IMG/VR virus record: IMGVR_UViG_3300044533_000758
Coordinates: 1-28,424 of that record
Length of the DNA stretch: 28,424 bases
Strand: one strand, 5' to 3'
Source of the DNA: a virus
The translations under genes and the position numbers were made by a program. The notes beneath the pieces are model-generated. The model was given only the letters and a program-made list of their open reading frames with translations, searched no databases and was not told where the DNA came from. Positions 5,231 through 14,404 of the stretch are shown here, one piece after another. Each line of letters begins with the position of its first letter. The stretch's first letter is position 1.

Positions 5231-5308
5231 CCTATCATAGTCTGCAAGGCTGCCACCATTGTCTAGGTGCGCCTTGCGTCTTAGTTGTTCAGCAGAATAC
5301 TCAGACAC
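5213..5308 (-). CDS. 31-residue ORF with GTG start, end of leftward operon
   Basis: Starts at a GTG within the stop region of the preceding gene (8-base overlap), with AAGGA 7 nt before it, and encodes a hydrophilic peptide beginning MSEYSAEQLRRKAHLDNGGS. Its final codons form one arm of the operon terminator. It has protein-like composition and a good ribosome-binding site, but it is very short and the GTG start is a judgement. Confidence 0.5.
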   Translation of the reverse strand: MSEYSAEQLRRKAHLDNGGSLADYDRAHYPE

Positions 5309-5486
5309 TTTTGCGTCCTTGTATCCAACCTGAATGAATACCAACTAGCGGTGCGTCAATGTTTACTGCTGTGCCAATTGGTAATGCGTTAGAGTATTGA
5401 TCAATAAACTCTAGTATTTTTTCTTTGCTTGTAAATGGCATGTCTGCCACCGAGCCGTTAACTGTTGTTAGTTTTACTGGTATCAC
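5301..5486 (-). CDS. 61-residue hypothetical protein, paralogue of the gene at 7700
   Basis: The GTG start overlaps the stop of the upstream gene (GTGA), preceded by AGGAGAG. The protein aligns along its whole length with the 61-residue product of 7700-7885 on the opposite strand: shared VKL.T.NG.V, then FI..Y.N.LP.G..V.I, then a G-rich end. Compact beta-alpha-beta-like composition, no known domain. Having one copy on each side of the divergent control region suggests duplication and a conserved small fold; the function is unknown. Confidence 0.75.
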   Translation of the reverse strand: MIPVKLTTVNGSVADMPFTSKEKILEFIDQYSNALPIGTAVNIDAPLVGIHSGWIQGRKSV

Positions 5487-5849: not shown

Positions 5850-5914
5850 GGGGTTATTTGCTAGGCTCACTGTGATTTGTCTCACATTTACTTGCTAGGC
5901 TCACGCCCCTAAAT
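5843..5914. repeat. nested repeats around a Crp-like site in the divergent control region
   Basis: Outer inverted arms ATTTAGGGG (5843-5851) and CCCCTAAAT (5906-5914) enclose a 13-bp direct repeat TTGCTAGGCTCAC (5858-5870 and 5892-5904), which in turn flanks a perfect Crp-like palindrome (5871-5886). The ordered nesting between divergent operons suggests a compound operator or iteron-like element. Confidence 0.6.
5871..5886. promoter_or_regulatory. Crp/GlxR-like operator
   Basis: TGTGA-TTTGTC-TCACA matches both half-sites of the Crp consensus. It lies between the divergent operons, inside the nested repeats, about 64 bp upstream of the leftward start. Confidence 0.6.
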
Positions 5915-6020
5915 AATTCTATATTTAATTTTCTATAATGGAATTATAGCAGGGATAAGCCCAAAAGTCAACACGACACGCCGTTAATAACACGCATGTA
6001 ATTAGTGATATGCACCACAC

Positions 6021-6043
6021 GACATATCGGACATATCGGACAT
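6021..6043 (-). promoter_or_regulatory. tandem TGTCCGATA motif
   Basis: Read on the minus strand, two tandem copies of a 9-bp unit (TGTCCGATA) follow a third TGTCCGATA-like start. The unit resembles the 14-mer TGTCCG(A/T)TTTGTAC box found upstream of three rightward promoters, so this may be a cluster of half-sites for the same protein. Confidence 0.4.
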
Positions 6044-6076
6044 GCAGCCCGGCTCGGTCGGGTGTGTCTGAGAGGG

Positions 6077-6141
6077 TTATCCACATGACGTAGATCACAT
6101 ACCTATTTCACGCTCAAGTTATCCACATGACCTACATCACA
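6077..6141 (+). repeat. 23-bp direct repeat combining DnaA box and Crp-like site; candidate origin element
   Basis: Two near-identical 23-bp copies (6077-6099 and 6119-6141) begin with the perfect DnaA box TTATCCACA and continue into a Crp-like palindrome (CATGA-N6-TCACA at 6084-6099 and 6126-6141). They differ only at two S positions. Two further DnaA boxes in the opposite orientation lie at 7034-7054. This may be a replication origin, or DnaA/Crp control of the early promoter at 6175. Confidence 0.5.
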
Positions 6142-6149
6142 AGACACAA

Positions 6150-6163
6150 TGTCCGTTTTGTAC
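6150..6163 (+). promoter_or_regulatory. TGTCCGTTTTGTAC box
   Basis: A 14-mer repeated exactly at 9839-9852 and with one change at 12557-12570, always upstream of an early promoter. Here it lies 11 bp before the -35. Probably an operator. Confidence 0.5.
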
Positions 6164-6174
6164 TACTTACTGGT

Positions 6175-6203
6175 GAGTAAATGTCAGTGGTCGCTGTTAT
6201 ACT
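6175..6203 (+). promoter_or_regulatory. rightward early promoter
   Basis: GAGTAA-N17-TATACT, with TGTCAG at the start of the spacer as in several other promoters here. Predicted start near 6210, about 40 nt before the first gene; GAAAGGA precedes that ATG. Confidence 0.6.
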
Positions 6204-6251
6204 TCTAGTATAAAGAAAGTTAAATAAAGGTTATTTAACAGAAAGGACAAA

Positions 6252-6359
6252 ATGAAAGATTTTGTTAAAAAGTTAGAATTAGAAAACTATCTTGATGAAA
6301 GTCAAGATGAGTTAAGTCTAAGACTAGATGAGTTAATCGCTCTTGGTTCATATAACTAA
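6252..6359 (+). CDS. 35-residue acidic helical peptide, first early gene
   Basis: Encodes MKDFVKKLELENYLDESQDE and 15 more residues, a predicted charged helix. GAAAGGA lies 5 nt before the ATG and a good promoter lies about 50 bp upstream, so expression is well supported although the peptide matches no known family. As the first gene after the control region it might be regulatory, but this is only position. Confidence 0.6.
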   Translation: MKDFVKKLELENYLDESQDELSLRLDELIALGSYN

Positions 6360-6372
6360 ATATAAAAAAAAT

Positions 6373-6442
6373 CCTAGTGAGCCTTACTAAAAAAGTAAGC
6401 AAATAATCTAGGTCAAGGAAAAAGATAAACACAAGGTTTATC
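6373..6442 (+). ncRNA. structured intergenic RNA leader
   Basis: A nested hairpin (CCTAG 6373-6377 with CTAGG 6408-6412 enclosing CTTACT 6383-6388 and AGTAAG 6394-6399) is followed by a second hairpin (GATAAAC 6424-6430 with GTTTATC 6436-6442). The second ends 10 nt before the AAAGAAAGG ribosome-binding site of the next gene. It could control the translation of that gene or process the message; no known riboswitch is recognised. Confidence 0.4.
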
Positions 6443-6463
6443 GCTTAAAGAAAGGAATTCAAA

Positions 6464-6637
6464 ATGAATTCACTAAAAAATAAAGTGTGTAAGCATACAC
6501 CTAATAAAAATGCTATCTCTATCCATCAGGATATGAAATATACTTTCTGTGAGAATTGCGAAAGCAATATCTACTCTCACTATATTGAGGACAATGACTT
6601 AATGTCTTATTGGTCTTCATGGAAGGTAGGTAAATAA
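6464..6637 (+). CDS. 57-residue zinc-finger-like protein
   Basis: Cys9-Lys-His11 near the start and CENC (29-32) suggest a metal site, followed by an aromatic, acidic tail (YIEDNDLMSYWSSWK). AAAGAAAGG precedes the ATG. Its stop abuts the next ATG directly. No family recognised; one of many tiny CxxC proteins in this region. Confidence 0.65.
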   Translation: MNSLKNKVCKHTPNKNAISIHQDMKYTFCENCESNIYSHYIEDNDLMSYWSSWKVGK

Positions 6638-6742
6638 ATGTTTTCTACAATAAAACTAAATTGTCGCATATGTGATGAACCTATTTATAGCGTTCATTTT
6701 GATACGCAAGACATAATCACTTGCTCAAATTGTTGGGAGTAA
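6638..6742 (+). CDS. 34-residue CxxC zinc-ribbon peptide
   Basis: Two CxxC knuckles (CRIC at 9-12, CSNC at 29-32) spaced as in a minimal zinc ribbon. Starts immediately after the previous stop, so translation is probably coupled. Such peptides may bind RNA, DNA or host proteins; none is identified. Confidence 0.6.
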   Translation: MFSTIKLNCRICDEPIYSVHFDTQDIITCSNCWE

Positions 6743-6743
6743 A

Positions 6744-6866
6744 ATGCTTAACGAAATAAAAAATAAAATAATTCGTATTCAAGAATTGCGCCGTAGTAAT
6801 GCGGCAACACCAATTCCAAATAAAAAAAAATATAGTAGAAAGGTAAAACATAAAAATGCAAAATGA
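6744..6866 (+). CDS. 40-residue very basic peptide
   Basis: Encodes MLNEIKNKIIRIQELRRSNA followed by a Lys/Arg/Asn-rich end (NKKKYSRKVKHKNAK), with the charge of a nucleic-acid-binding tail. Starts 1 nt after the previous stop and overlaps the next ORF by 11 bases. Function unknown. Confidence 0.5.
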   Translation: MLNEIKNKIIRIQELRRSNAATPIPNKKKYSRKVKHKNAK

Positions 6867-6966
6867 AAATATAACTAAGCAATTTGAAAACGCAGTTGAA
6901 TTAACTAATTTAACCGAAGCGCAATTAGAAATTGTTAAACAAATTTTATTAGATAAATTTAACTAA
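6856..6966 (+). CDS. 36-residue acidic helical peptide, end of operon
   Basis: Encodes a predicted helix (TEAQLEIVKQILLDKFN at the end). AGAAAGG lies about 12 nt before the ATG, longer than usual. The end-of-operon hairpin follows 8 nt after its stop. No family recognised. Confidence 0.5.
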   Translation: MQNENITKQFENAVELTNLTEAQLEIVKQILLDKFN

Positions 6967-6973
6967 TAAAAAA

Positions 6974-7008
6974 TTTTTGCAGAAATAAAAACTCTGCAAA
7001 AAACCCGG
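6974..7008 (+). terminator. end-of-operon hairpin followed by AAAACCCGG
   Basis: TTTTTGCAGA (6974-6983) and TCTGCAAAAA (6993-7002) form a 10-bp stem with loop AATAAAAAC; AAAACCCGG (7000-7008) follows. The loop end is like those of hairpins at 8618, 11006, 11855, 12508 and 13690. There is no U-run, so it may be a processing or stability element rather than a classical terminator. Confidence 0.55.
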
Positions 7009-7033
7009 CTCCCCTGGCGTGTCGTCCACAGCC

Positions 7034-7054
7034 TGTGGATAAACCTGTGGATAA
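7034..7054 (-). other. two DnaA boxes
   Basis: TGTGGATAA at 7034-7042 and 7046-7054, the reverse complement of TTATCCACA, spaced 12 bp. They oppose the two boxes at 6077 and 6119 and lie between an operon end and a Crp-like site. Confidence 0.55.
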
Positions 7055-7065
7055 CTTACGTACGA

Positions 7066-7081
7066 TGTGATTTTTCTCACA
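7066..7081. promoter_or_regulatory. Crp/GlxR-like operator
   Basis: TGTGA-TTTTTC-TCACA, perfect half-sites, centred about 84 bp upstream of the predicted start from the promoter at 7123. CTTACGTAC precedes it, a word also found at 9853. Confidence 0.6.
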
Positions 7082-7122
7082 CAGTTTGAGCGTCTTATTA
7101 TTTGAGATTACTGGCTAGTAGG

Positions 7123-7151
7123 TTGTAAATGTCTGCTAATTCTGCTAAACT
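7123..7151 (+). promoter_or_regulatory. early promoter
   Basis: TTGTAA-N17-TAAACT, with TGTCTG in the spacer and CTGC directly before the -10. Reads the three genes 7194-7605. Confidence 0.65.
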
Positions 7152-7193
7152 TACAGAGTAAGAAAATAACAAAAAAGAAAGTAGGTAGCAAAA

Positions 7194-7391
7194 ATGGCTA
7201 ACCTTTACACAATAGAAAACCTTTTACAAGGTAAACAATATCGCTCTAATTCTCTTAATGGAGAAATTATTAGCGGTGAAAAAACCGACCATTGGTTTGG
7301 TAATGATAGAGAAGCGTATCGTGTTTTAATTCGCACACCGCATTCTTATACAGACCACTATCGCATAATTGCGGTTAAGGTAGGTGAATAA
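7194..7391 (+). CDS. 65-residue hypothetical protein
   Basis: A mixed alpha/beta small protein (MANLYTIENLLQGKQYRSNS, then DREAYRVLIRTPHSYTDHYRIIAVKVGE). The ATG follows AAAGAAAGTAGG. First gene of its operon, directly abutting the next ATG. The aromatic, Arg-rich second half is consistent with a small beta-barrel, but no family is recognised. Confidence 0.65.
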   Translation: MANLYTIENLLQGKQYRSNSLNGEIISGEKTDHWFGNDREAYRVLIRTPHSYTDHYRIIAVKVGE

Positions 7392-7505
7392 ATGATAAAA
7401 CTTTGTGGTATTTGTGGTATCAATTCCGCTCATGTATCTAAGCATGGCATTCCCCCAATGTGTGATGAATGTATTGCTAAGAATTGGAGGAGGGTCAATG
7501 TCTGA
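7392..7505 (+). CDS. 37-residue CxxC zinc-finger peptide
   Basis: CGIC (5-8) and CDEC (24-27) with His14 and His18 between; basic end (KNWRRVNV). Starts at the base after the previous stop. Overlaps the next gene by 8 bases, whose GGAGGAGGG ribosome-binding site lies inside its coding end. Probably a zinc-binding adaptor of unknown partner. Confidence 0.6.
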   Translation: MIKLCGICGINSAHVSKHGIPPMCDECIAKNWRRVNV

Positions 7506-7605
7506 TTATCTTAACTCTCTAGATGAGGTCTATACCGACCTAGTAGCCGAGTATGGCGAGGAGATAACCCTTGCTTATCATCAGGCTAATATAAAGGAGA
7601 TGTGA
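7498..7605 (+). CDS. 35-residue acidic peptide
   Basis: Encodes MSDYLNSLDEVYTDLVAEYG and 15 further residues, strongly acidic and helical. The ATG at 7498 is chosen because GGAGGAGGG lies 4 nt before it. The stop codon is part of a Crp-like palindrome (7601-7616) that precedes the next promoter. Confidence 0.6.
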   Translation: MSDYLNSLDEVYTDLVAEYGEEITLAYHQANIKEM

Positions 7606-7616
7606 GGCAACTCACA
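7601..7616. promoter_or_regulatory. Crp/GlxR-like operator overlapping a stop codon
   Basis: TGTGA-GGCAAC-TCACA, perfect half-sites, centred about 64 bp before the predicted start of the next operon. Confidence 0.55.
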
Positions 7617-7636
7617 CTCCAACACACCCCCTATAA

Positions 7637-7666
7637 TTGGAAAATGTCAGCGATAACTGATAGAAT
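7637..7666 (+). promoter_or_regulatory. early promoter
   Basis: TTGGAA-N18-TAGAAT with ATGTCAG in the spacer. Reads the five genes 7700-8606. Confidence 0.6.
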
Positions 7667-7699
7667 AATAACTCAAACAAAAACGAAAGGTGGTCAGAA

Positions 7700-7885
7700 A
7701 TGACTTATACTGTAAAACTAGAAACCTTTAATGGTGCTGTAAAAAATATCAACCTACCTTCTCAGGGTGCGGTTGCTCAATTCATAAACACTTACCCAAA
7801 CCAATTACCTGTTGGCGTATCTGTAAAAATTGCTTGTGATGTGTTAGGTGTTCGTGGCACACTTAGGGGAAAGGCGTTAGCATAA
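7700..7885 (+). CDS. 61-residue hypothetical protein, paralogue of the gene at 5301
   Basis: GAAAGGTGG precedes the ATG. The protein (MTYTVKLETFNGAVKNINLP...) matches the 61-residue product of 5301-5486 in length and pattern: VKL.T.NG.V, FI..Y.N.LP.G..V.I and a Gly/Arg-rich end. The shared hydrophobic spacing suggests a compact beta-alpha fold. First gene of its operon, with a TAATG overlap to the next gene. Function unknown. Confidence 0.75.
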   Translation: MTYTVKLETFNGAVKNINLPSQGAVAQFINTYPNQLPVGVSVKIACDVLGVRGTLRGKALA

Positions 7886-8034
7886 TGATAAGTAGCGTAA
7901 TGACTTTTAAATGCGACCAATGCAATAATGCAGGTTATATCTTTTGGGGAGATAACCTTGACTATGATGTAGAAAAATGCCAATGCGAAAATTTTGCCCT
8001 TGGAACTTTATTTACTAGCGGGGAGGCTGACTAA
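7885..8034 (+). CDS. 49-residue Cys-rich protein, related to the gene at 8801
   Basis: CDQC (10-13) and CQC (32-34) flank GYIFWGDNLDYDVEK. The segment from Gly17 to Cys34 matches the product of 8801-8965 (GWLYQGNNVDFDSEVCEC), so the two are paralogues or share a zinc-binding fold. TAATG overlaps couple it to both neighbours. The GYxxxG...CxC arrangement recalls DnaJ-type zinc knuckles, but that is only resemblance. Confidence 0.65.
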   Translation: MISSVMTFKCDQCNNAGYIFWGDNLDYDVEKCQCENFALGTLFTSGEAD

Positions 8035-8243
8035 TGAAAACAATTAAACACTACATAACACTAGAAACTGAAATTCTTAACGAAAACGATATAACTGCTA
8101 AGGCTCTTTTATCTTTACCTAAAGAAACACAACAAATTAGACTAACTGAATTAGCCTATATTGCTTTATCTGAAACAATAGAAAAAGAGTTAATAAAGTT
8201 AAATAAAAACAATTCTTTTGCTGTCTTAAAGTTGGTTAAATAA
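8034..8243 (+). CDS. 69-residue helical hypothetical protein
   Basis: Starts in a TAATG overlap. Charged helix-rich composition (ETEILNENDITAKALLSLPK ... SETIEKELIKLNKNNSFAV). No membrane segment or motif. Coupled to the next gene by another TAATG, so it is part of a tightly ordered operon. Not recognised. Confidence 0.65.
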   Translation: MKTIKHYITLETEILNENDITAKALLSLPKETQQIRLTELAYIALSETIEKELIKLNKNNSFAVLKLVK

Positions 8244-8455
8244 TGATGACTAGAAAATCTTATATCCAAACCGCAAACATCTTAAAAGGATTTGTAGATG
8301 AAATTCCACAAAATACTTATGAGGATTTAGTTCAAGAATTTGCTGAGTGGTTTAAATCAGATAATGAAAACTTTGACTACGCAAGATTTGAAAAGGCTTG
8401 CGGAATTGATGAAATTGGTTTAATTCCTGTTGGTTCTGAAATGTGGAAGGGGTAA
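8243..8455 (+). CDS. 70-residue hypothetical protein
   Basis: Starts MMTRKSYIQTANILKGFVDE; the second Met (8246) is an alternative. Acidic, helical middle (YEDLVQEFAEWFKSDNENFDYARFEKACGID). Such YEDLVQEFAEWFKxDNxxFDxxRFxxAC patterns occur in small actinophage proteins of unknown function. TAATG junction with the preceding gene. Confidence 0.7.
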   Translation: MMTRKSYIQTANILKGFVDEIPQNTYEDLVQEFAEWFKSDNENFDYARFEKACGIDEIGLIPVGSEMWKG

Positions 8456-8459
8456 AACA

Positions 8460-8606
8460 ATGATAACTAATTTAGATTTAATTGCAATAATTATTGCGCT
8501 AAGTGGTTCAATGTTGGTAATGTTTTTATTTTATAAACAAAATGTTGCACAACAAAAAGAAATTCGCAGATTGCGAAATGAATTGCGTAAAGCATTTAAA
8601 GTATAA
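8460..8606 (+). CDS. 48-residue membrane protein with basic coiled-coil tail
   Basis: One N-terminal membrane helix (about 5-25, LDLIAIIIALSGSMLVMFLFY) followed by a basic, coiled-coil-like tail (QQKEIRRLRNELRKAFKV). Starts 4 nt after the previous stop; AAGGGG lies before the ATG. Last gene of the operon; the end-of-operon hairpin follows. It may anchor something to the membrane, but no function is known. Confidence 0.6.
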   Translation: MITNLDLIAIIIALSGSMLVMFLFYKQNVAQQKEIRRLRNELRKAFKV

Positions 8607-8617
8607 ATAAAAATTCC

Positions 8618-8662
8618 TGAGCAAGAATAAAAACTGCTCAAACATTTGTTCGAAAAACCCGG
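8618..8662 (+). terminator. end-of-operon hairpin plus AAAACCCGG
   Basis: TGAGCA (8618-8623) and TGCTCA (8635-8640) with the 11-nt loop AGAATAAAAAC, then AAAACCCGG (8654-8662) and GGCGTGTCG (8669-8677), the latter also at 7016-7024. No U-run follows. Confidence 0.55.
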
Positions 8663-8700
8663 CGCAGGCGGCGTGTCGCAATCTATACATGACCTTTACG

Positions 8701-8716
8701 TGTGGTTAAGATCACA
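8701..8716. promoter_or_regulatory. Crp/GlxR-like operator
   Basis: TGTGG-TTAAGA-TCACA, one mismatch from the consensus half-site, centred about 73 bp before the predicted start. Confidence 0.5.
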
Positions 8717-8745
8717 CCCTAAATTCCCCAGATTAAGGCGTCTAA

Positions 8746-8775
8746 TTGGATTTTGTCAGTTGTATCTGCTAGGAT
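8746..8775 (+). promoter_or_regulatory. early promoter
   Basis: TTGGAT-N18-TAGGAT, with TGTCAG in the spacer and CTGC before the -10. Reads the genes 8801-9795. Confidence 0.6.
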
Positions 8776-8800
8776 AAAGATATAAAGAAAGAAGGAACAA

Positions 8801-8965
8801 ATGGGTAAAGTAAAAGAAGCACTAATGGATATATTAGAGCATGACCTATGCTATGGCTATGGTTGGTTATATCAAGGAAATAATGTAGACTTTGATAGTG
8901 AGGTTTGCGAGTGTAATCCTTACGCTATATCTGCTGATGAAATAATGGAATGGAAAGGACTATAA
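8801..8965 (+). CDS. 54-residue Cys-rich protein, related to the gene at 7885
   Basis: Contains CYGYGWLYQGNNVDFDSEVC and a following CxC, matching the core of the 7885-8034 product. An N-terminal helix (KEALMDILEHDL) and a C-terminal acidic helix flank it. GAAGGAAC precedes the ATG. First gene of an operon of five; TAATG overlap with the next. A zinc-binding function is inferred from the cysteines. Confidence 0.65.
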   Translation: MGKVKEALMDILEHDLCYGYGWLYQGNNVDFDSEVCECNPYAISADEIMEWKGL

Positions 8966-9180
8966 TGGATAAAGAATATACTTATTCACTTACTACTTCA
9001 TATGATGGAGAGTTAATAAATACCCTGCGAGTTAGCGATATGCTAGAAGCAGTTAGGGCTTGGGATAAATGCGTGGACTATGGCTTTGCTAAAGAATACG
9101 CAACCTATAACTTGTCTGACCCAACAGGTAAGATGTATACTAAAACCTTCTACACTAACGGAGAGGTCGTAATTAAATAA
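8965..9180 (+). CDS. 71-residue hypothetical protein
   Basis: Starts MDKEYTYSLTTSYDGELINT in a TAATG overlap; an upstream TTG in frame is less likely. Mixed beta strands and a helix (DMLEAVRAWDKCVDYGFAKEY). Proteins with this YSLTTSYDGE...AVRAWDKCVDYGxAKEYATYNLSDPxGKMYTK layout are seen among actinophage small genes; function unknown. TAATG to the next gene. Confidence 0.7.
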   Translation: MDKEYTYSLTTSYDGELINTLRVSDMLEAVRAWDKCVDYGFAKEYATYNLSDPTGKMYTKTFYTNGEVVIK

Positions 9181-9476
9181 TGGGAAGCATAACAGCAATA
9201 GGTTTAGCAGATACAACGCTAGACCTAGAAACACAATTAAAGTATCACCTGCAAGGTAATCATTATCCACCAATACCAACAGTAATGGTTCAGCCATGTA
9301 TTGAGGCTATTGACGCATACTATGAGGAGGATTATTCTCGTAGAATAGAATTACCAGTTGTAGATGGATTTCAAATTAGTTGGAAAGGCAACACTTGGAC
9401 TACCGCCAGCGCATTGGTATCACACGCACACCTAGAGTGGTTCATTGAGCCAGCAGATGAGGACTTATATGAGTAA
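9180..9476 (+). CDS. 98-residue hypothetical protein
   Basis: Starts MGSITAIGLADTTLDLETQL in a TAATG overlap. Contains HYPPIPTVMVQPCIEAIDAY, typical of small actinophage proteins with a conserved YPP.P motif, then an acidic C-terminus. No membrane segment. Overlaps the next small ORF by 8 bases. Role unknown. Confidence 0.7.
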   Translation: MGSITAIGLADTTLDLETQLKYHLQGNHYPPIPTVMVQPCIEAIDAYYEEDYSRRIELPVVDGFQISWKGNTWTTASALVSHAHLEWFIEPADEDLYE

Positions 9477-9561
9477 AGACTTGCAAGATAAGTTAGACGC
9501 AGTTGCTAAAATTTTAGAACCTATCCTATGGGAAACATTAGCAGAAATTGAGGCTGAATAA
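9469..9561 (+). CDS. 30-residue acidic helical peptide
   Basis: Encodes MSKDLQDKLDAVAKILEPIL plus ten residues, an amphipathic acidic helix. GAGGA lies about 5 nt before the ATG, and its stop abuts the next ATG. Short, but the packing between two genes supports it. Confidence 0.5.
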   Translation: MSKDLQDKLDAVAKILEPILWETLAEIEAE

Positions 9562-9795
9562 ATGGCTGCTACAATGATGAACATGGAATTAAAGAAAATA
9601 GATATTCTCAAACCTTCTATGATGATGGTTGGAGATTTTATTAGATACAATGATGAGGTAGTTGAAATACTTTCTCTTGAATCTGATCCTGACCAATACT
9701 TTTGGTATGCAGAATATCAAAATGAGTTTGGTGAAAAAGATACCGCTCAGTTAGTTGATAATGAATACTATGATTGGTATATTCACTTAGAATAA
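9562..9795 (+). CDS. 77-residue acidic hypothetical protein
   Basis: The ATG directly follows the previous stop. The sequence (MVGDFIRYNDEVVEILSLES...YFWYAEYQNEFGEKDTAQLVDN) resembles a small SH3-like beta barrel: G-D-F-I-R-Y-N-D-E-V-V-x-I is a common barrel strand pattern. Last gene of the operon; a hairpin follows 1 nt after its stop. Confidence 0.65.
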   Translation: MAATMMNMELKKIDILKPSMMMVGDFIRYNDEVVEILSLESDPDQYFWYAEYQNEFGEKDTAQLVDNEYYDWYIHLE

Positions 9796-9826
9796 TTTTT
9801 CTGCACTTCCCCGCAGAAAAACCCGG
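9796..9826 (+). terminator. end-of-operon hairpin plus AAAACCCGG
   Basis: TTTTTCTGC (9796-9804) and GCAGAAAAA (9813-9821), 9-bp stem, 8-nt loop, beginning directly after the stop codon; AAAACCCGG at 9818-9826 overlaps the descending arm. Confidence 0.55.
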
Positions 9827-9838
9827 CCCTGCCCGATT

Positions 9839-9852
9839 TGTCCGTTTTGTAC
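9839..9852 (+). promoter_or_regulatory. TGTCCGTTTTGTAC box
   Basis: Exact copy of the 14-mer at 6150-6163, 11 bp before a -35, followed by CTTACGTAC. Confidence 0.5.
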
Positions 9853-9863
9853 CTTACGTACAC

Positions 9864-9892
9864 TTGATATTTTCTCCACATTCTGCTAAAAT
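9864..9892 (+). promoter_or_regulatory. promoter of leaderless GP88 gene
   Basis: TTGATA-N17-TAAAAT followed by 6 nt and ATG, so the predicted start is the A of the start codon. Confidence 0.7.
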
Positions 9893-9898
9893 ATTTAT

Positions 9899-10627
9899 AT
9901 GACAACATCACAATTAAAAAGATCATTTGACAGAAAGGTTGCTAATCTTGTCACAAAAAATGGAAAGCAAGCCGCAATTGCAAACACGTTCGGTCTTCCC
10001 GCTGGAAAGAATTATTCATGCCCTGGTGCCACTAGTGTTTGTGAAAGTGTTTGCTACGCAGGAAAACTTGAAAAACTCTACAAAGCCGTAAAGGCAAACC
10101 TAATACATAATTGGGAATTATTAAAAGACGCTGACGAATCGACTATGATTGATCTATTGCAGAATATGATTAATGATTTTAAAAAAGATTGTGAAAAGAA
10201 AAATGCGTCATTGTTATTTCGTATTCATTGGGACGGTGATTTCTTTAATGACACGTACACCAAAGCATGGAAACAAATCATCCTTAACAATACAGATATA
10301 AAATTCTGGGTATATACAAGGGTACAGCCTGCAGCGGTAATGCTAAAGGATATTCCTAATCTATCCTTATACTATTCAACAGACAGCGAGAATAAGCAGA
10401 TAGGCGTTAGTTTAAAGAAAGATCATGGGGTACGCCTTGCATACCTTGCACAGAATTTTGCAATAGGTCAGGCAGATATGAAGGAGTTATTTAATCGACC
10501 TGGTGCTAAGTGCCCTGAAAACCTAAAAGCCATTCCACTTATCTCAAGCGCTGGCTCGGCTTGCGTATCTTGCGGTTTGTGTGTATACTCTAAGAGCGAC
10601 ATAGTCTTTTCATCATCTAAGAAATAA
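9899..10627 (+). CDS. GP88-family phage protein, Cys-rich
   Basis: A 242-residue protein recognised as GP88-like (named after a mycobacteriophage gene) from NTFGLPAGKNYSCPGATSVC and the downstream FRIHWDGDFF and FWVYTR motifs. Seven cysteines are arranged as C41, C48, C52 and C205, C222, C225, C228. The spacing and the GDFF/WVYTR elements recall radical-SAM-like phage proteins of the Gp37/Gp68 type, but a CxxxCxxC motif is not present, so an iron-sulphur or zinc role is inference. The message appears leaderless: TAAAAT ends 6 nt before the ATG. The family is typical of actinophages and its function is unknown. Confidence 0.85.
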   Translation: MTTSQLKRSFDRKVANLVTKNGKQAAIANTFGLPAGKNYSCPGATSVCESVCYAGKLEKLYKAVKANLIHNWELLKDADESTMIDLLQNMINDFKKDCEKKNASLLFRIHWDGDFFNDTYTKAWKQIILNNTDIKFWVYTRVQPAAVMLKDIPNLSLYYSTDSENKQIGVSLKKDHGVRLAYLAQNFAIGQADMKELFNRPGAKCPENLKAIPLISSAGSACVSCGLCVYSKSDIVFSSSKK

Positions 10628-10634
10628 GGGGCAT

Positions 10635-10700
10635 ATGGAGATACTAATAGTATTATCACTTATATTCTTATATATCCTATTCTCAGGCATGGGGCATTAG
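10635..10700 (+). CDS. 21-residue membrane micropeptide
   Basis: Encodes MEILIVLSLIFLYILFSGMG plus a final His: a single hydrophobic helix. AAGGGG lies 5 nt before the ATG, and its stop abuts the Crp-like palindrome at 10701. Downstream of the GP88 gene by 7 nt. Plausible as a phage micropeptide but could be chance. Confidence 0.45.
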   Translation: MEILIVLSLIFLYILFSGMGH

Positions 10701-10737
10701 TGTGATGTATCTCACATCTCAATATATGAGATTATCC
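10701..10737. promoter_or_regulatory. composite operator: Crp-like site plus CTCA/TGAG palindrome
   Basis: TGTGA-TGTATC-TCACA (10701-10716), which fits TGTGANNTANNTCACA at every fixed base, runs into a second palindrome ATCTCA-N5-TGAGAT. The same pair, with small changes, occurs at 11912. Centred about 75 bp before the predicted start. Confidence 0.6.
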
Positions 10738-10747
10738 ATGAGATAAT

Positions 10748-10776
10748 TTGTATTTTTGACCAAAAAATGTTAGACT
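10748..10776 (+). promoter_or_regulatory. early promoter
   Basis: TTGTAT-N17-TAGACT; predicted start near 10783. Reads the 56-residue gene at 10812. Confidence 0.6.
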
Positions 10777-10811
10777 TATACAGTAAGCAAAAACCAACAA
10801 GAAGGAGAACC

Positions 10812-10982
10812 ATGTCCGTATCAAACGCAACATACAAGGTAGGCGACACCTACACATCACAAAAATCAAAGGTAGTAGGAACTATTACCGAAATTGTGCC
10901 AACTAACAAAAACACAGTTAGAGTTAAGTTAGATGTTAATGGCTCAACTCGCTGGACAACTTGGACAGCAAAGAACGCTTAA
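10812..10982 (+). CDS. 56-residue beta-barrel-like protein, paralogue of the gene at 11572
   Basis: The ATG at 10812 follows AAGGAGAACC. The sequence YKVGDTYTSQKSKVVGTITEIVPTNKNTVRVKLDVNGS has a KOW/SH3-like strand pattern and matches the 56-residue product of 11572-11742 in length and layout (YxxGDxxTxxKxxVxGxIxxxxPxNxxxxRVxLxxxNGSxR). Possibly a small nucleic-acid-binding barrel. An ATG 45 bp upstream is rejected because it lacks a ribosome-binding site and lies at the promoter. Confidence 0.7.
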   Translation: MSVSNATYKVGDTYTSQKSKVVGTITEIVPTNKNTVRVKLDVNGSTRWTTWTAKNA

Positions 10983-10984
10983 TC

Positions 10985-11028
10985 TTAGCCTAGTGGCTAA
11001 AGTCCTGAGCATGACGAGAAACTGCTCA
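10985..11028 (+). terminator. double hairpin between genes
   Basis: TTAGCC/GGCTAA (10985-10990, 10995-11000, 4-nt loop) followed by TGAGCA/TGCTCA (11006-11011, 11023-11028) with loop TGACGAGAAAC. The second belongs to the family of end-of-operon hairpins. Confidence 0.5.
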
Positions 11029-11067
11029 ACTCAAAAGCCCCACTAACAGAAATGGAAACCCATCACA

Positions 11068-11490
11068 ATGGCAAGAAGCAAACCCATCAGCGTAAAAATC
11101 GCTACTGCTAAGGTTATTACAGCCTTAGAAAATAGATTAGCAGAGTTAGAGGCTAACTATAAAACACAAGACGAGAACGAAGCAAAGTTCCAAGTCGCAA
11201 TAGAGGCTTGGAAAAAAGAACTATTTGCTTTTGCTATCGCTAATGTTTCTAAGGCAGAAAACCTACGCACTAACTATCGTCAATGGTCAAGCAACCTTAA
11301 TGTTGATTTTGATTTAACAGTTAAGGAAGGCGAGTTCCCTGCTGAGCCTCAAAGAGAGTTTGAGCAACTCCATGCTCATACCTATCGTGAGCAGAAAGAG
11401 GAAATGGAAAACGCTATCCGTATCCTCAAAATGACCGACGAGGAAACAGTTAATACTAGCACATATAACGCTATCGCAAGATACTTGTAA
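11068..11490 (+). CDS. 140-residue coiled-coil hypothetical protein
   Basis: Starts MARSKPISVKIATAKVITAL and continues as a long charged helix (ALENRLAELEANYKTQDENEAKFQVAIEAWKKELF), then a variable region and a second helix (YREQKEEMENAIRILKMTDEE). GAAATGGAAACCC upstream offers only a weak ribosome-binding site. Proteins of this layout (IATxKVIxALExxLAxxExNY) are found in actinophages with unknown role. Followed at once by a perfect hairpin that carries the next promoter. Confidence 0.7.
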   Translation: MARSKPISVKIATAKVITALENRLAELEANYKTQDENEAKFQVAIEAWKKELFAFAIANVSKAENLRTNYRQWSSNLNVDFDLTVKEGEFPAEPQREFEQLHAHTYREQKEEMENAIRILKMTDEETVNTSTYNAIARYL

Positions 11491-11493
11491 TAG

Positions 11494-11533
11494 TTTGGGG
11501 GTATTTGACTATGCCCCCAAAATATGTTAGACT
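11494..11533 (+). promoter_or_regulatory. hairpin and promoter in one element
   Basis: TTTGGGGG (11494-11501) and CCCCCAAA (11514-11521) form a perfect 8-bp stem 4 nt after a stop codon. The -35 TTGACT (11505-11510) is in its loop and the right arm is part of the 17-nt spacer before TAGACT (11528-11533). It looks like a terminator that doubles as the promoter of the gene at 11572. Confidence 0.6.
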
Positions 11534-11571
11534 AAATAAGTAAGCAACCACCACAACAGAAAAGGAAAATC

Positions 11572-11742
11572 ATGACACTAGGCGGATACACATACCAACT
11601 AGGTGATTTATTCACCACTAGTAAAACAGGCGTAACTGGTAGAATTGTAAAGTTCTCACCACTTAACTCTAAACTTACTAGAGTATCACTACAATTAGCA
11701 AACGGCTCTCGTCGTCTTGCTATGGTAAGCACAACTAAATAA
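11572..11742 (+). CDS. 56-residue beta-barrel-like protein, paralogue of the gene at 10812
   Basis: Encodes MTLGGYTYQLGDLFTTSKTG..., 56 residues, the same length and strand pattern as the product of 10812-10982. AAAAGGAAAATC precedes the ATG. It is alone in its operon, with its own promoter. The YxLGD...GRIVKFSP...LTRVSLQLANGSRR layout and basic residues suggest a small nucleic-acid-binding barrel (inference). Confidence 0.7.
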   Translation: MTLGGYTYQLGDLFTTSKTGVTGRIVKFSPLNSKLTRVSLQLANGSRRLAMVSTTK

Positions 11743-11911
11743 ATAATCTTGGGGTAGGTTTGTAACGTGTAATCACTTAAGTCCCTGCCCCAACCATATT
11801 TATCTCTGATAAGCACTTGGCTTAATTGCTAAGTTATTCCTGAGATAAGACTCCTGAGCATGAGTTCTAAACTGCTCATCTTTTAATTGCCCCCGCAAAA
11901 ATCCGGGGCAG
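11743..11911 (+). other. 169-bp non-coding stretch with hairpins
   Basis: Contains a long-range TTGGGG/CCCCAA pairing (about 11748-11794), the family hairpin TGAGCA/TGCTCA (11855-11860, 11873-11878, loop TGAGTTCTAAAC), and a compact CCCCG/CGGGG hairpin (11891-11895, 11904-11908) that takes the place of the AAAACCCGG word. No coding signal seen; it links two operons. Confidence 0.5.
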
Positions 11912-11943
11912 CGTGATTTAAATCACATCTCATTATGTGAGAC
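11912..11943. promoter_or_regulatory. composite operator: Crp-like site plus CTCA/TGAG palindrome
   Basis: CGTGA-TTTAAA-TCACA (11912-11927) continues into ATCTCA-N4-TGAGA, repeating the arrangement at 10701. Centred about 75 bp before the predicted start, the same distance as there. Confidence 0.55.
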
Positions 11944-11959
11944 TAATTAAGAACTGAAC

Positions 11960-11988
11960 TTGCATTTCCACAATCTTGATGATATTAT
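11960..11988 (+). promoter_or_regulatory. early promoter
   Basis: TTGCAT-N17-TATTAT; predicted start near 11995, about 20 nt before the ATG at 12014, with AAAAGGA between. Confidence 0.6.
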
Positions 11989-12013
11989 TGTATTAACAGA
12001 AAAGGAACCCCTA

Positions 12014-12481
12014 ATGAGCGAAGTAATGACACAGGAGCAGTTATCTGTTCCATACAATCCTAACCTACTTGTTACGTACAAGTATGTTCCAGAAACATAT
12101 GCAGCACCTGAAAGCCCTACATTCATGACTGATAAGGTTACTCAGATTGAATGGGACCTACATAACGGTCGTACTACTCAAAAACAATTAGCAGAGAGAC
12201 GCTTAGATATAAGTTGGTTAGAGGAACAAATTGTAGAATGGTATGACCCTAACTATACTAAAGAAGAAGTGTTGCAAGCAATCATAGAACACTTTGGGTT
12301 TAATCCAACTAAGCAAATTGAAGTTCAAGGTACCGTATCGTTCAGCGGAACGATTAATATTCCACTGTCAGAGATTGAAGACTTTGACCTTAGCAATGTA
12401 ACAATTGATGTTGATCTAAGTTCATATGAGTATGACGCAGATCTTAATGTGGACGAAGTATCTTTGGAGGACCACTACTAA
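12014..12481 (+). CDS. 155-residue hypothetical protein with acidic beta C-terminus
   Basis: The ATG at 12014 follows AAAAGGA; an ATG 54 bp upstream overlaps the promoter and is rejected. The first 100 residues are helical (VTQIEWDLHNGRTTQKQLAERRLDISWLEEQIVEWYDPNYTKEEV); residues about 100-155 are beta-rich and very acidic (VQGTVSFSGTINIPLSEIED ... DVDLSSYEYDAD). Layout typical of single-stranded DNA or RNA mimic-like acidic tails, but that is speculation. The gene stands alone in its operon. Confidence 0.7.
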   Translation: MSEVMTQEQLSVPYNPNLLVTYKYVPETYAAPESPTFMTDKVTQIEWDLHNGRTTQKQLAERRLDISWLEEQIVEWYDPNYTKEEVLQAIIEHFGFNPTKQIEVQGTVSFSGTINIPLSEIEDFDLSNVTIDVDLSSYEYDADLNVDEVSLEDHY

Positions 12482-12484
12482 ATT

Positions 12485-12544
12485 TGATAGGGGGCTATCA
12501 ACGTCGTGGGCCAAGACGTAAAACTGGCCCTAACAAAAACCCGG
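12485..12544 (+). terminator. hairpin cluster plus AAAACCCGG
   Basis: TGATAG/CTATCA (12485-12490, 12495-12500, GGGG loop), then GGGCCA (12508-12513) and TGGCCC (12525-12530) with loop AGACGTAAAAC, then AAAACCCGG (12536-12544). The second hairpin keeps the loop of the TGAGCA family but has a different stem, which suggests covariation. Confidence 0.55.
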
Positions 12545-12556
12545 CCCCGCCCTAAA

Positions 12557-12570
12557 TGTCCGATTTGTAC
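12557..12570 (+). promoter_or_regulatory. TGTCCGATTTGTAC box
   Basis: Third copy of the 14-mer, one base different, 36 bp before the -35 of the next promoter. Confidence 0.45.
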
Positions 12571-12606
12571 CAATTAAGAAGATTAAACCATTTTCCCCAA
12601 TCCTAG

Positions 12607-12635
12607 TTGACATTGTCAGCCATGACTGCTAAACT
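12607..12635 (+). promoter_or_regulatory. strong early promoter
   Basis: TTGACA-N17-TAAACT with TTGTCAG in the spacer and CTGC before the -10. Reads the DUF932 gene and probably the tRNA. Confidence 0.7.
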
Positions 12636-12661
12636 TAGTTAAAACAACCGAAAGGATAAAA

Positions 12662-13678
12662 ATGGCTCATGATTTAGAAACTCAAAATGGCGTAGCAAGT
12701 TTTGCATCATTTAGAGAGCCTGCATGGCACAATCTTGGTACTGTATTTGATACTGAGAAAAATACAAGTGAAATGCTTGTTGCTGCTAATCTTAATAATT
12801 GGAATGTTAGACTAGAGGATTTAGAAATCCCATCTAGTTTAGTATCTGACAAACAATATCAATATGTTGTTCGTACAAATCCTACTGATAAATCTCAAAC
12901 TGATGTTTTGGGAATTGTTGGGCAGCGTTATGTTCCACTACAAAATGAGGATTTATTTGCCTTTGGCGATAACATTCTTGATGGTGGTGGGCGTTGGGAA
13001 ACCGCTGGCTCAATTAGTGGTGGGCGTGTAGTATTTGGCTCATTAGCATTAGAGCGTGAAACTGTATTAGACCCTAATGGCGTTGCTGATGTTGTAAAGA
13101 CTTATTTACTCATCAACACTTCACATGATGGTTCAATCGCTATTCAAGCAAGCATAACACCTGTTCGTGTTGTGTGTGCTAATACTCTTAATGTTGCACT
13201 AAACCGCACTAAGAAAAAAGATGGCGTAAAGCAATCTTTCAAAATCCGTCATACCCAAACTGCTGAGGGCAAAATTGCTATTGCTCGTCAGGCACTAGGC
13301 ATGGCTAACGCTTACATGACTGAGTTCGATAAGATGGCTCATGCTATGATAGCAAAAGAAATCTCAGCACAAGATTTCAATAACATTATTCTTGCTGCTT
13401 ATCCTAAGCCTGAATTAGATACTAAGGGCGCAGTAAAGAAATGGGAAAACAAGGTAGATATGATTAACGATATCTATACTGGTGAATTTAACGGAATGAT
13501 TGCTGGTAATGCGTGGGGTGCGTTCAATGCGCTAACTGAGCGTTTAGACTGGTATCGTTCATCTCGTAGTGCAAATGGCGAAAGCATGTTTGCTGCTGCT
13601 TCTGGATTTGACCCTGCTACCAATGCAGAAAAAAATCGTTTGCTAAGTATTGTTCAAAATACTTTACAAATAGTTTAA
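12662..13678 (+). CDS. DUF932 / phage-plasmid-like protein (TIGR03299)
   Basis: A 338-residue protein recognised from its start (MAHDLETQNGVASFASFREPAWHNLG), the central VVGQRY-like segment (DVLGIVGQRYVPLQNEDLFAFGD), the VVCANTLNVAL motif and the WYRSSRSANGESMFAAASGFDPATNAEKNRL end, all hallmarks of DUF932. Members occur in phages and plasmids of many bacteria; the function is unknown. CCGAAAGGA precedes the ATG. Full length, no disruption. Confidence 0.9.
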   Translation: MAHDLETQNGVASFASFREPAWHNLGTVFDTEKNTSEMLVAANLNNWNVRLEDLEIPSSLVSDKQYQYVVRTNPTDKSQTDVLGIVGQRYVPLQNEDLFAFGDNILDGGGRWETAGSISGGRVVFGSLALERETVLDPNGVADVVKTYLLINTSHDGSIAIQASITPVRVVCANTLNVALNRTKKKDGVKQSFKIRHTQTAEGKIAIARQALGMANAYMTEFDKMAHAMIAKEISAQDFNNIILAAYPKPELDTKGAVKKWENKVDMINDIYTGEFNGMIAGNAWGAFNALTERLDWYRSSRSANGESMFAAASGFDPATNAEKNRLLSIVQNTLQIV

Positions 13679-13689
13679 CAATAAAATCC

Positions 13690-13712
13690 TGAGCAAGATT
13701 TAAAACTGCTCA
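13690..13712 (+). terminator. end-of-operon hairpin before the tRNA
   Basis: TGAGCA (13690-13695) and TGCTCA (13707-13712), loop AGATTTAAAAC. It separates the DUF932 coding end from the tRNA by 5 nt, so it could also mark the tRNA 5' end for processing. Confidence 0.55.
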
Positions 13713-13717
13713 TCATT

Positions 13718-13791
13718 GGTTCTGTAGCATAGTTGGTTAATGCGCTACCCTGTCACGGTAGAGATCGTGGGTTCAAGTCCCATCAGAGCCG
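13718..13791 (+). tRNA. tRNA-Asp (GTC)
   Basis: A 74-nt cloverleaf: acceptor GGTTCTG/CAGAGCC (one G-U), D stem GCAT/ATGC, anticodon stem CTACC/GGTAG with loop CTGTCAC (anticodon GTC), five-base variable loop, T stem GTGGG/CCCAT with loop TTCAAGT, discriminator G. No CCA is encoded. It ends the DUF932 operon and is followed by CCGGGTTTTCTTTCTTT, a U-rich release signal. It may boost decoding of GAT/GAC in phage messages. Confidence 0.95.
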
Positions 13792-13844
13792 CCCCGGGTT
13801 TTCTTTCTTTAAATAATAACACATGATTGCTTCATTAAGAAAGA

Positions 13845-13873
13845 TTGACTTTTTCCCCAGTTTCCTGTAAAAT
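13845..13873 (+). promoter_or_regulatory. promoter of leaderless gene
   Basis: TTGACT-N17-TAAAAT, 6 nt, then ATG at 13880, the same geometry as the GP88 promoter. Confidence 0.7.
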
Positions 13874-13879
13874 ATTAAC

Positions 13880-14038
13880 ATGACCACAATTAACAAACCA
13901 CTAACCATAGACGGCCTAATAATGAATATATATGAGGACAACTCTGAACATTTTGACTTTATATATAGCATGAATAATGGAGACTGCGATTGTTGTCTTC
14001 ACTTTGCAATGAATTTGATTAAGGAGTATGATAGATAA
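13880..14038 (+). CDS. 52-residue Cys-rich peptide, leaderless
   Basis: Encodes MTTINKPLTIDGLIMNIYED... with a CDCC cluster (36-39) near the end, possibly metal-binding. The start is fixed by the promoter: -10 TAAAAT ends exactly 6 nt before the ATG and there is no ribosome-binding site. TAATG overlap with the next gene. Function unknown. Confidence 0.6.
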   Translation: MTTINKPLTIDGLIMNIYEDNSEHFDFIYSMNNGDCDCCLHFAMNLIKEYDR

Positions 14039-14214
14039 TGTTAGGTTATACATATAAAGATATACAGGCCTTTGGTAATAGTTTAACTTGGGCTATTGAT
14101 ACCGCCAAAAACCAGGGGGATGAACAAAACTATAAACAATTACTAATAGTATGGGACTTCTTTGAGGGACTACTAGCAGAAGGTTACATAGATGAGAACA
14201 CATACTATGGATAA
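14038..14214 (+). CDS. 58-residue hypothetical protein
   Basis: Starts in a TAATG overlap and encodes a helical acidic protein (MLGYTYKDIQAFGNSLTWAI ... WDFFEGLLAEGYIDENTYYG). No motif recognised. Overlaps the following small ORF by 8 bases. Confidence 0.6.
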   Translation: MLGYTYKDIQAFGNSLTWAIDTAKNQGDEQNYKQLLIVWDFFEGLLAEGYIDENTYYG

Positions 14215-14359
14215 TGGCGAGATCTTAGATAAGATTATAGAACTTATAAACACAGACGGAGAGATCATGTCTGATGAAGAGGTTGTTAATAATATTAGGG
14301 GACTTCTTGAGACTAACCCTCAAACCTATTGGGGAGCAAGCCAAAGCAGTGTGATGTAG
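14207..14359 (+). CDS. 50-residue acidic helical peptide
   Basis: Starts within the end of the previous gene and encodes MDNGEILDKIIELINTDGEI..., acidic and helical. Its stop lies inside a Crp-like site. The overlap and protein-like composition support it; no ribosome-binding site is clear, so coupling is assumed. Confidence 0.5.
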   Translation: MDNGEILDKIIELINTDGEIMSDEEVVNNIRGLLETNPQTYWGASQSSVM

Positions 14360-14365
14360 ATCACC
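14350..14365. promoter_or_regulatory. Crp/GlxR-like operator
   Basis: TGTGA-TGTAGA-TCACC, one mismatch, centred about 54 bp before the predicted start; CCTTACG follows. Confidence 0.5.
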
Positions 14366-14375
14366 TTACGATATC

Positions 14376-14404
14376 TTGTAATTTTTCCCAGTTCGTAGTA
14401 AAAT
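14376..14404 (+). promoter_or_regulatory. early promoter
   Basis: TTGTAA-N17-TAAAAT; predicted start near 14411. Reads five genes to 16185. Confidence 0.65.

Follow-up and report, generated by a model that had tools for sequence, protein, structure and literature searches.

The DNA considered here, a 28,424-nucleotide viral stretch (IMG/VR record IMGVR_UViG_3300044533_000758, positions 1 to 28,424; hereafter the window), raises the question of why a phage should carry a series of TGTGA-N6-TCACA palindromes, the operator type of the bacterial regulators Crp and GlxR, and which protein would read them. Phage early promoters are usually regarded as strong and free of host regulators. The array of Crp-type palindromes in the window is confirmed by our analysis and is stronger than first stated, with exceptions. 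Judged from sequence, the palindromes are probably operators for a Crp/GlxR-type regulator of the host, which would serve as a class-I-type activator of a cluster of promoters in these uncultured phages, whose hosts are probably actinobacteria.

Enrichment and conservation of the palindromes

A sequence-only reading of the window had proposed Crp-type operators at 5871, 6084, 6126, 7066, 7601, 8701, 10701, 11912 and 14350, four of them perfect, and had singled out 10701 as fitting the consensus TGTGANNTANNTCACA. Sites are present at all nine coordinates; 5871, 7066, 7601 and 10701 are indeed perfect, three others carry one mismatch and two (6084 and 6126) carry two, and 10701 is the sole full match to the consensus among the window sites. 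The same reading had noticed no such sites in the tail and glycan regions, which has to be amended for a one-mismatch match at 27416 that lies in coding sequence and looks like chance.

The sites do not occur at chance density, neither in the window nor among its relatives. Markov simulations of the window (orders 1, 2 and 3; 60 each) yielded zero perfect sites compared to four observed, and sites with at most one mismatch averaged 0.55-0.97 per simulation, with a maximum of 3, compared to eight observed. When half-site gaps of 0-20 were tested in the window, matches were found at gap 6 only. Allowing two mismatches gave 19 matches against 14.8 expected and thus no enrichment, indicating that the signal resides in the sites with zero or one mismatch.

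For the relatives, we used IMG/VR loci matching the DUF932 protein encoded at 12662-13678 of the window, taking the best 80 of 487 (82-100% identity, 1.32 Mb), each reaching at most 10 kb to either side of the DUF932 gene. The closest named phages among the matches listed are the Streptomyces phages NootNoot and Riptide (~53% identity in the DUF932 protein), and a placement in the Stanwilliamsviridae is stated in the NootNoot record only. The 80 loci contain 247 perfect TGTGA-N6-TCACA palindromes, while the controls, 16 other gap lengths between 0 and 16 as well as 29 permuted half-sites, yield 0-8 each. From the 80, 26 longer records were chosen, which hold 104 perfect sites, present in 25 of the 26, with a reversed control giving zero. 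The number of perfect sites in each whole record equals the number in its own DUF932 locus, so that no perfect site lies elsewhere in the 26 records, and the clustering is seen directly in three long ones, for example in G022, where the sites fall between 94,980 and 103,598 of 116,566. According to a crude open reading frame (ORF) model, 194 of 251 perfect sites lie in noncoding DNA, which makes up 30% of the total. After removal of redundancy, which reduced the 247 sites to 130 for base preferences and to 142 for phasing, a T-A preference was found at the centre of N6 (T, then A, each at a frequency of 0.57; 130 sites).

The half-sites are also conserved beyond their surroundings. For the seven main window sites (5871, 7066, 7601, 8701, 10701, 11912 and 14350) we compared 72 orthologous segments of less than 97% identity, leaving out repeats and rows at or above 97%. 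Pooled identity was 95.3% in the half-sites (n=720), 76.2% in N6 (n=432) and 78.5% in the flanks (n=3600), with a Fisher p of ~2e-33 (from rounded counts). At 5871 the half-sites are 99% and N6 is 48% identical (15 segments), the corresponding values being available for 7066 (97% and 71%, 7 segments), 10701 (94% and 75%, 10 segments), 11912 (95% and 82%, 19 segments) and 7601 (100% and 96%, 4 segments); at 14350 both are 100% (4 segments). The arms of the two-mismatch sites 6084 and 6126 are each 99% conserved (9 and 15 segments, respectively), and their left arm, CATGA, overlaps the DnaA-box-like word TTATCCACA.

Helical phasing upstream of phage promoters

To relate the sites to transcription, we searched both sides of each site for the best sigma-70-type promoter and measured d, the distance between the first base of its -10 hexamer and the centre of the palindrome. 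Over the 142 nonredundant perfect sites, d peaks at 41, 52, 62-63 and 71-73, with R=0.53 at a period of 10.5 bp (Rayleigh p ~3e-18) and the highest R among the periods tested, 0.56, at 10.0. With jittered anchors, R averaged 0.08 and never exceeded 0.21 in 200 runs. A second sample came from motif-scan loci, from which lookalikes of the first set and sites with TTGTCAG within 80 bases were removed (629 sites, 252 nonredundant, 251 with a promoter call, 148 free of the scan motif). The Rayleigh p values assume independent sites though the phages are related, and the guards against this are clustering at 55% identity, which left 81 sites with R=0.49 (p ~3e-9), and the second sample, in which the 148 sites gave R=0.57 (p ~1e-21) with the phase of the first sample. 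When one-mismatch sites were sought starting from the promoters, the peaks of d were at 52, 61-63 and 71-73. Moreover, an IMG/VR-wide scan for a site followed by a gap and TTGTCAG returned at least 120 stretches each for the in-phase gaps 26-28 and 36-38, compared to 5 for the out-of-phase gaps 20-22 and 13 for 41-43, as phasing predicts. The relation of the sites to promoters thus recurs among the related phages and, since the spacing changes in steps of whole helical turns, the sites lie mostly on one face of the helix.

The window follows the same layout (Table 1). The sequence-only reading had placed its sites 54-85 bp before predicted starts, which is right for predicted transcription starts (the seven main sites have centres between -53.5 and -84.5) and wrong for start codons. 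The centres of these seven sites lie outside all frames of at least 60 codons, the site at 7601 overlapping the end of frame 7405-7605 and that at 14350 the last bases of a 55-codon frame ending at 14359. The promoter spacers contain a TTGTCAG-like heptamer whose end is 10 bases upstream of the -10 and which is strong in Crp-linked promoters.

Could the palindromes be ordinary inverted repeats, that is terminators, RNA hairpins or plain chance matches? The lack of enrichment at up to two mismatches in the window would suit this explanation, yet N6 is the only enriched spacing, the sites are phased to promoters, and the half-sites are kept while the spacer varies, making it very improbable. The terminator or hairpin version was accordingly set aside on spacing, phase and footprint.

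Helical phasing upstream of promoters is instead read as Crp-type activation, since Crp-type upstream activators work in this manner. We propose that, after infection, a host Crp dimer together with cyclic AMP (cAMP) would bind upstream of the sigma-70-type promoters of the phage, mostly 41, 52, 62 or 72-73 bp before the -10 (centres near -53.5, -64.5, -74.5 and -85), and would contact RNA polymerase from one helix face as a class-I-type activator. The position of the site would shift by whole helical turns between promoters, and a cluster of short operons would be switched on jointly according to the cAMP-Crp state of the host. That these are early genes is suggested by the gene layout and by the related Streptomyces phages.

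Other motifs accompany the palindromes. TCTCA-N5-TGAGA occurs 98 times in the 80 related loci, compared to 0-9 at other gaps between 0 and 12, and is probably the site of a second regulator. Of its 45 nonredundant copies, 30 form two groups, spaced by roughly one helical turn, whose centres follow that of a Crp-type site by 15.5-26.5 bp; 14 lie far from any Crp-type site and one lies upstream. TGTCCG or CGGACA boxes are seen upstream of promoters at 6150, 9839 and 12557 of the window as well as in intergenic regions of NootNoot (L109), and are linked to part of a class of sites with d=57-58.

As for the surrounding genes, TTATCCACA words at 6077-6127 and 7034-7054, two per strand, lie near the divergence point and may mark an origin, and two small proteins, judged by eye to be similar, flank this point at 5301-5486 (minus strand) and 7700-7885 (plus strand). 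Promoter-like sequences at 9864-9901 and 13845-13882 have their -10 six bases before the ATG of a GP88-family gene (9899) and of a frame at 13880, so that these genes possibly yield leaderless transcripts. A repeated, terminator-like hairpin, CCTGAGCA...TGCTCA, follows genes at 8610, 10998, 11847 and 13682, and the pattern GAGCA-N11-TGCTC has 153 copies in the related loci. A tRNA-Asp gene (13717-13794) comes directly after the DUF932 gene.

Table 1. Predicted Crp-type operators and accompanying motifs in the window (d, palindrome centre to first base of the predicted -10; centre, approximate position relative to the predicted transcription start).
Positions	Strand	Feature	Predicted -10	d (bp)	Centre	Next start
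5871-5886	-	Perfect Crp-type operator, leftward promoter	TAGAAT 5826-5821	52	-64.5	frame start 5778
6084-6099	+	Weak Crp-like CATGA-N6-TCACA joined to TTATCCACA	6198	106
6126-6141	+	Weak Crp-like CATGA-N6-TCACA joined to TTATCCACA	TATACT 6198-6203	64
7066-7081	+	Perfect Crp-type operator	TAAACT 7146-7151	72	-84.5	ATG 7194
7601-7616	+	Perfect Crp-type operator	TAGAAT 7661-7666	52	-64.5	ATG 7700
8701-8716	+	One-mismatch Crp-type operator	TAGGAT 8770-8775	61	-73.5	ATG 8801
10701-10716	+	Perfect Crp-type operator, full GlxR consensus	TAGACT 10771-10776	62	-74.5	ATG 10812
10717-10731	+	Second palindrome TCTCA-N5-TGAGA, between Crp site and -35 region
11912-11927	+	One-mismatch Crp-type operator	TATTAT 11983-11988	63	-75.5	ATG 12014
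11928-11942	+	Second palindrome TCTCA-N5-TGAGA, adjoining Crp site
14350-14365	+	One-mismatch Crp-type operator	TAAAAT 14399-14404	41	-53.5	ATG 14434
27416-27431		One-mismatch match within coding frame, probably chance and outside the system; no informative orthologues
6181, 7129, 7644, 8753, 12613		TTGTCAG-like heptamers
5843	-	TTGTCAG-like heptamer

The candidate regulator and its host

The sequence-only reading had left open whether the sites are wired to a Crp-type regulator of the host or to a phage copy of one. While a Crp-type activator is favoured by the results above, the phage copy was not found. The cyclic nucleotide (cNMP)-binding domain was present in none of the 26 phage records, which may be incomplete, and was detected by the same search in 10 of 14 control genomes. 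Nor did the 80 loci, the window or three long records match profiles of 20 host Crp proteins or of the helix-turn-helix (HTH) region of these proteins. Both searches speak against a phage-encoded Crp.

Some other phage-encoded regulator, without sequence similarity to Crp, might nevertheless read the same palindrome and serve as the early or middle activator of the phage. The layout of the sites indicates factor-dependent activation without naming the factor, other motifs accompany the Crp-type sites, and most of the 32 ORFs scanned in record G005 have no Pfam family. On the other hand, no HTH is among the six Pfam families that were found in these 32 ORFs, the searches for Crp-type proteins were negative, and the motif agrees with the Crp/GlxR consensus in its length, its spacing and its inner base preference. 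A wider scan of G005 covered 140 ORFs and 72 Pfam families, 25 of the 72 being listed, which leaves room for a phage regulator elsewhere. Taken together, we consider such a regulator unlikely.

The host Crp is the stronger candidate. WhiB genes are found in 18 of the 26 phage records and, WhiB having been proposed as an actinophage marker (PMC10202952), point to actinobacterial hosts. One metagenome-assembled genome (MAG; G027) of the Actinomycetota holds a 4.7-kb contig of this phage group bearing TGTGATTTTTCTCACA. Among 81 genomes sampled from the order of this MAG (1.1-2.2 Mb), 75 encode a cNMP-binding domain, mostly in one Crp-sized protein, and GASRETVNKAL is encoded in all 20 Crp loci examined, which are the best-scoring ones of the candidate host order. 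For one candidate-host Crp (L091), the recognition segment LVGASRETVNKALADFA is identical in the two alignments listed with its best solved relatives, which from their entry codes we take to be M. tuberculosis CRP, followed by GlxR entries. The candidate host group thus has a Crp whose recognition helix is of actinobacterial type. TGTGA-N6-TCACA is the reported target of M. tuberculosis Crp (PMC4218801), and GlxR has the consensus TGTGANNTANNTCACA and acts mostly as an activator (PMC4254451). We thus infer that the protein bound at the phage sites would be the host Crp, presumably in response to cAMP.

In the candidate hosts themselves, the palindrome is rare. Counting full palindromes on both strands, the word TGTGA-N6-TCAC occurs 134 times in the 81 genomes (458 for the reversed word), compared to 954 at gap 9 (400 for the reversed word), and the gap-9 word outnumbers the N6 word in 81 of 81 genomes. 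Genomes of the candidate host order therefore avoid TGTGA-N6-TCAC strongly, though 75 of the 81 retain a Crp-type protein. In G028, a single-contig genome of the same order, GTGA-N6-TCAC occurs 5 times versus ~28 at gaps of the same codon phase, by that ratio the second lowest among 256 words. Across 31 genomes comprising the MAG and relatives, the palindrome and its reversed control were found 20 versus 93 times in the 20 small genomes and 188 versus 28 times in the 11 larger ones. We also inspected 14 host stretches, which were picked from match lists and hence do not give a rate (two of them, L423 and L088, are the same place); by the crude ORF model the site was within a frame in six and outside frames in eight. 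Five of the eight noncoding sites (L108, L429, L430 and L431, with L432 one base off), from five genomes, lie upstream of the same gene, labelled oxidase-like by eye, whose L108 copy, the one scanned, has no Pfam match. The other neighbour resembles CtaG in four of these five stretches, as confirmed by Pfam for L108 only. The host Crp thus probably uses this palindrome, if sparingly.

The scarcity of the word (134 versus 954 at N9) also means that phage sites could compete well for the regulator, which would suit a sponge that titrates host Crp away from host promoters; alternatively, the palindromes could be repressor sites that hold phage genes down until sugar enters, as reported for phage T1. 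A sponge could sit at any distance from promoters, and this does not fit the strong phase; repressor sites should overlap the promoter, but the main window sites end at least 10 bp upstream of the predicted -35. We therefore regard either role as quite improbable.

Several observations weigh against the palindromes being host Crp operators of the activator type, and some concern the layout. In the two samples pooled (374 nonredundant sites, 373 with a promoter call), 254 of 373 sites are at phased positions, which span 18 of the 71 allowed distances and were derived from these data, and about one third are off them, including 25 out-of-phase sites at d=57-58 and 11 at d=89-90. The former class is common, with at least 120 stretches for gaps 31-33 (d=56-58) in the IMG/VR-wide scan. 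TGTCC stands one base after the palindrome at 18 sites, 12 of which are at d=57-58; since 9 of the 25 sites of this class have no TGTCC within 30 bases, the box does not account for the whole class, part of which may consist of composite promoters, perhaps with another protein bound. The -35 elements of Crp promoters match on average 3.34 and 3.35 of 6 positions, much like the 3.43 of the comparison, and these means lend no support to the idea of a generally weaker -35; perfect TTGACA is nevertheless rarer (2 of 165 versus 35 of 360). As the -35 is not weaker on average, the promoters may not be fully dependent on Crp. By the crude ORF model, 57 of the 251 perfect sites lie within frames of at least 60 codons, and 8701 reverses the usual contrast, with 88% identity in the arms and 91% in N6 (13 segments). 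Moreover, compared to the positions known for class I sites of E. coli, the phage centres are ~2-3 bp further upstream.

The remaining points concern the host and the named relatives. The host link rests on the single 4.7-kb contig in one MAG; this MAG, which may be incomplete, itself shows no cNMP-binding domain, and no such phage gene was found in 295 other genomes of its order (1 of 296 overall). In noncoding DNA of G028 the motif is not enriched, with 23 matches at two mismatches and none better (controls 14-27). Finally, neither the 40 kb examined in NootNoot nor the 14 kb in Riptide contain a perfect TGTGA-N6-TCACA, and the single one-mismatch match there lies in a gene. The Streptomyces relatives were for this reason rejected as a second case, there being no perfect site in the regions compared.

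A bolder version of activation by host Crp can be put forward tentatively, and we hold it to be doubtful though worth stating. An actinophage clade might build its early programme on host cAMP-Crp with a combinatorial grammar, in which a turn-spaced Crp site would sometimes be followed, ~15 or 25 bp from its centre, by TCTCA-N5-TGAGA, or accompanied by a TGTCC box that, for some of the exceptions, comes with a shift of half a turn. The host chromosomes would have been all but purged of the palindrome, leaving most high-affinity Crp sites in the infected cell to the phage, and lysis would be coupled to host nutrition.

Comparison with known systems

Activation by host Crp would mean that several hundred nonredundant viral promoters carry the operator of a host-type global activator, and that infection would depend on the carbon status of the host, so that lysis would be tied to nutrition in what are probably actinobacterial hosts. 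The phased sites would also amount to a natural experiment on distance and helical angle in the activation of RNA polymerase by actinobacterial Crp, and the avoidance of the palindrome in the small genomes of candidate hosts raises the question of what Crp is kept for.

The arrangement resembles class I activation by cAMP-CRP in E. coli, where TGTGA-N6-TCACA likewise precedes the -35 and is placed on a single face of the helix at several turn-spaced positions. Unlike the E. coli promoters, those of the phage carry a TTGTCAG element in the spacer. NootNoot and Riptide share the genomic setting, with many short genes, most of them preceded by an individual promoter-like sequence whose -10 resembles TAGACT.

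Within the actinobacteria, the Crp/GlxR regulons, such as that of C. glutamicum GlxR, have in common with the phage sites the consensus and, for the activator, a position ahead of the promoter. The closest experimentally tested case that we found in these bacteria is M. smegmatis Crp, which activates ahpC from -81.5 (PMC4218801). These regulons concern chromosomal genes, whereas here the array of sites is viral.

Among phages, the closest precedent is T1, whose pir, dam and recE promoters are reported to be inhibited by host cAMP-CRP (PMC6737242). As in T1, the phage promoters here would be linked to host CRP; in T1, CRP inhibits and takes part in a lysis-lysogeny switch, whereas the geometry found here is of the activation type and extends over many promoters of probable actinophages. 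Searches of the open-licence literature directed at CRP in phages and at phage promoters of this host group turned up no account of arrays of Crp sites in actinophages, T1 being the nearest case. In conclusion, the use of host CRP by phages is known for single promoters, while a phased array across many promoters is, as far as our searches show, new.

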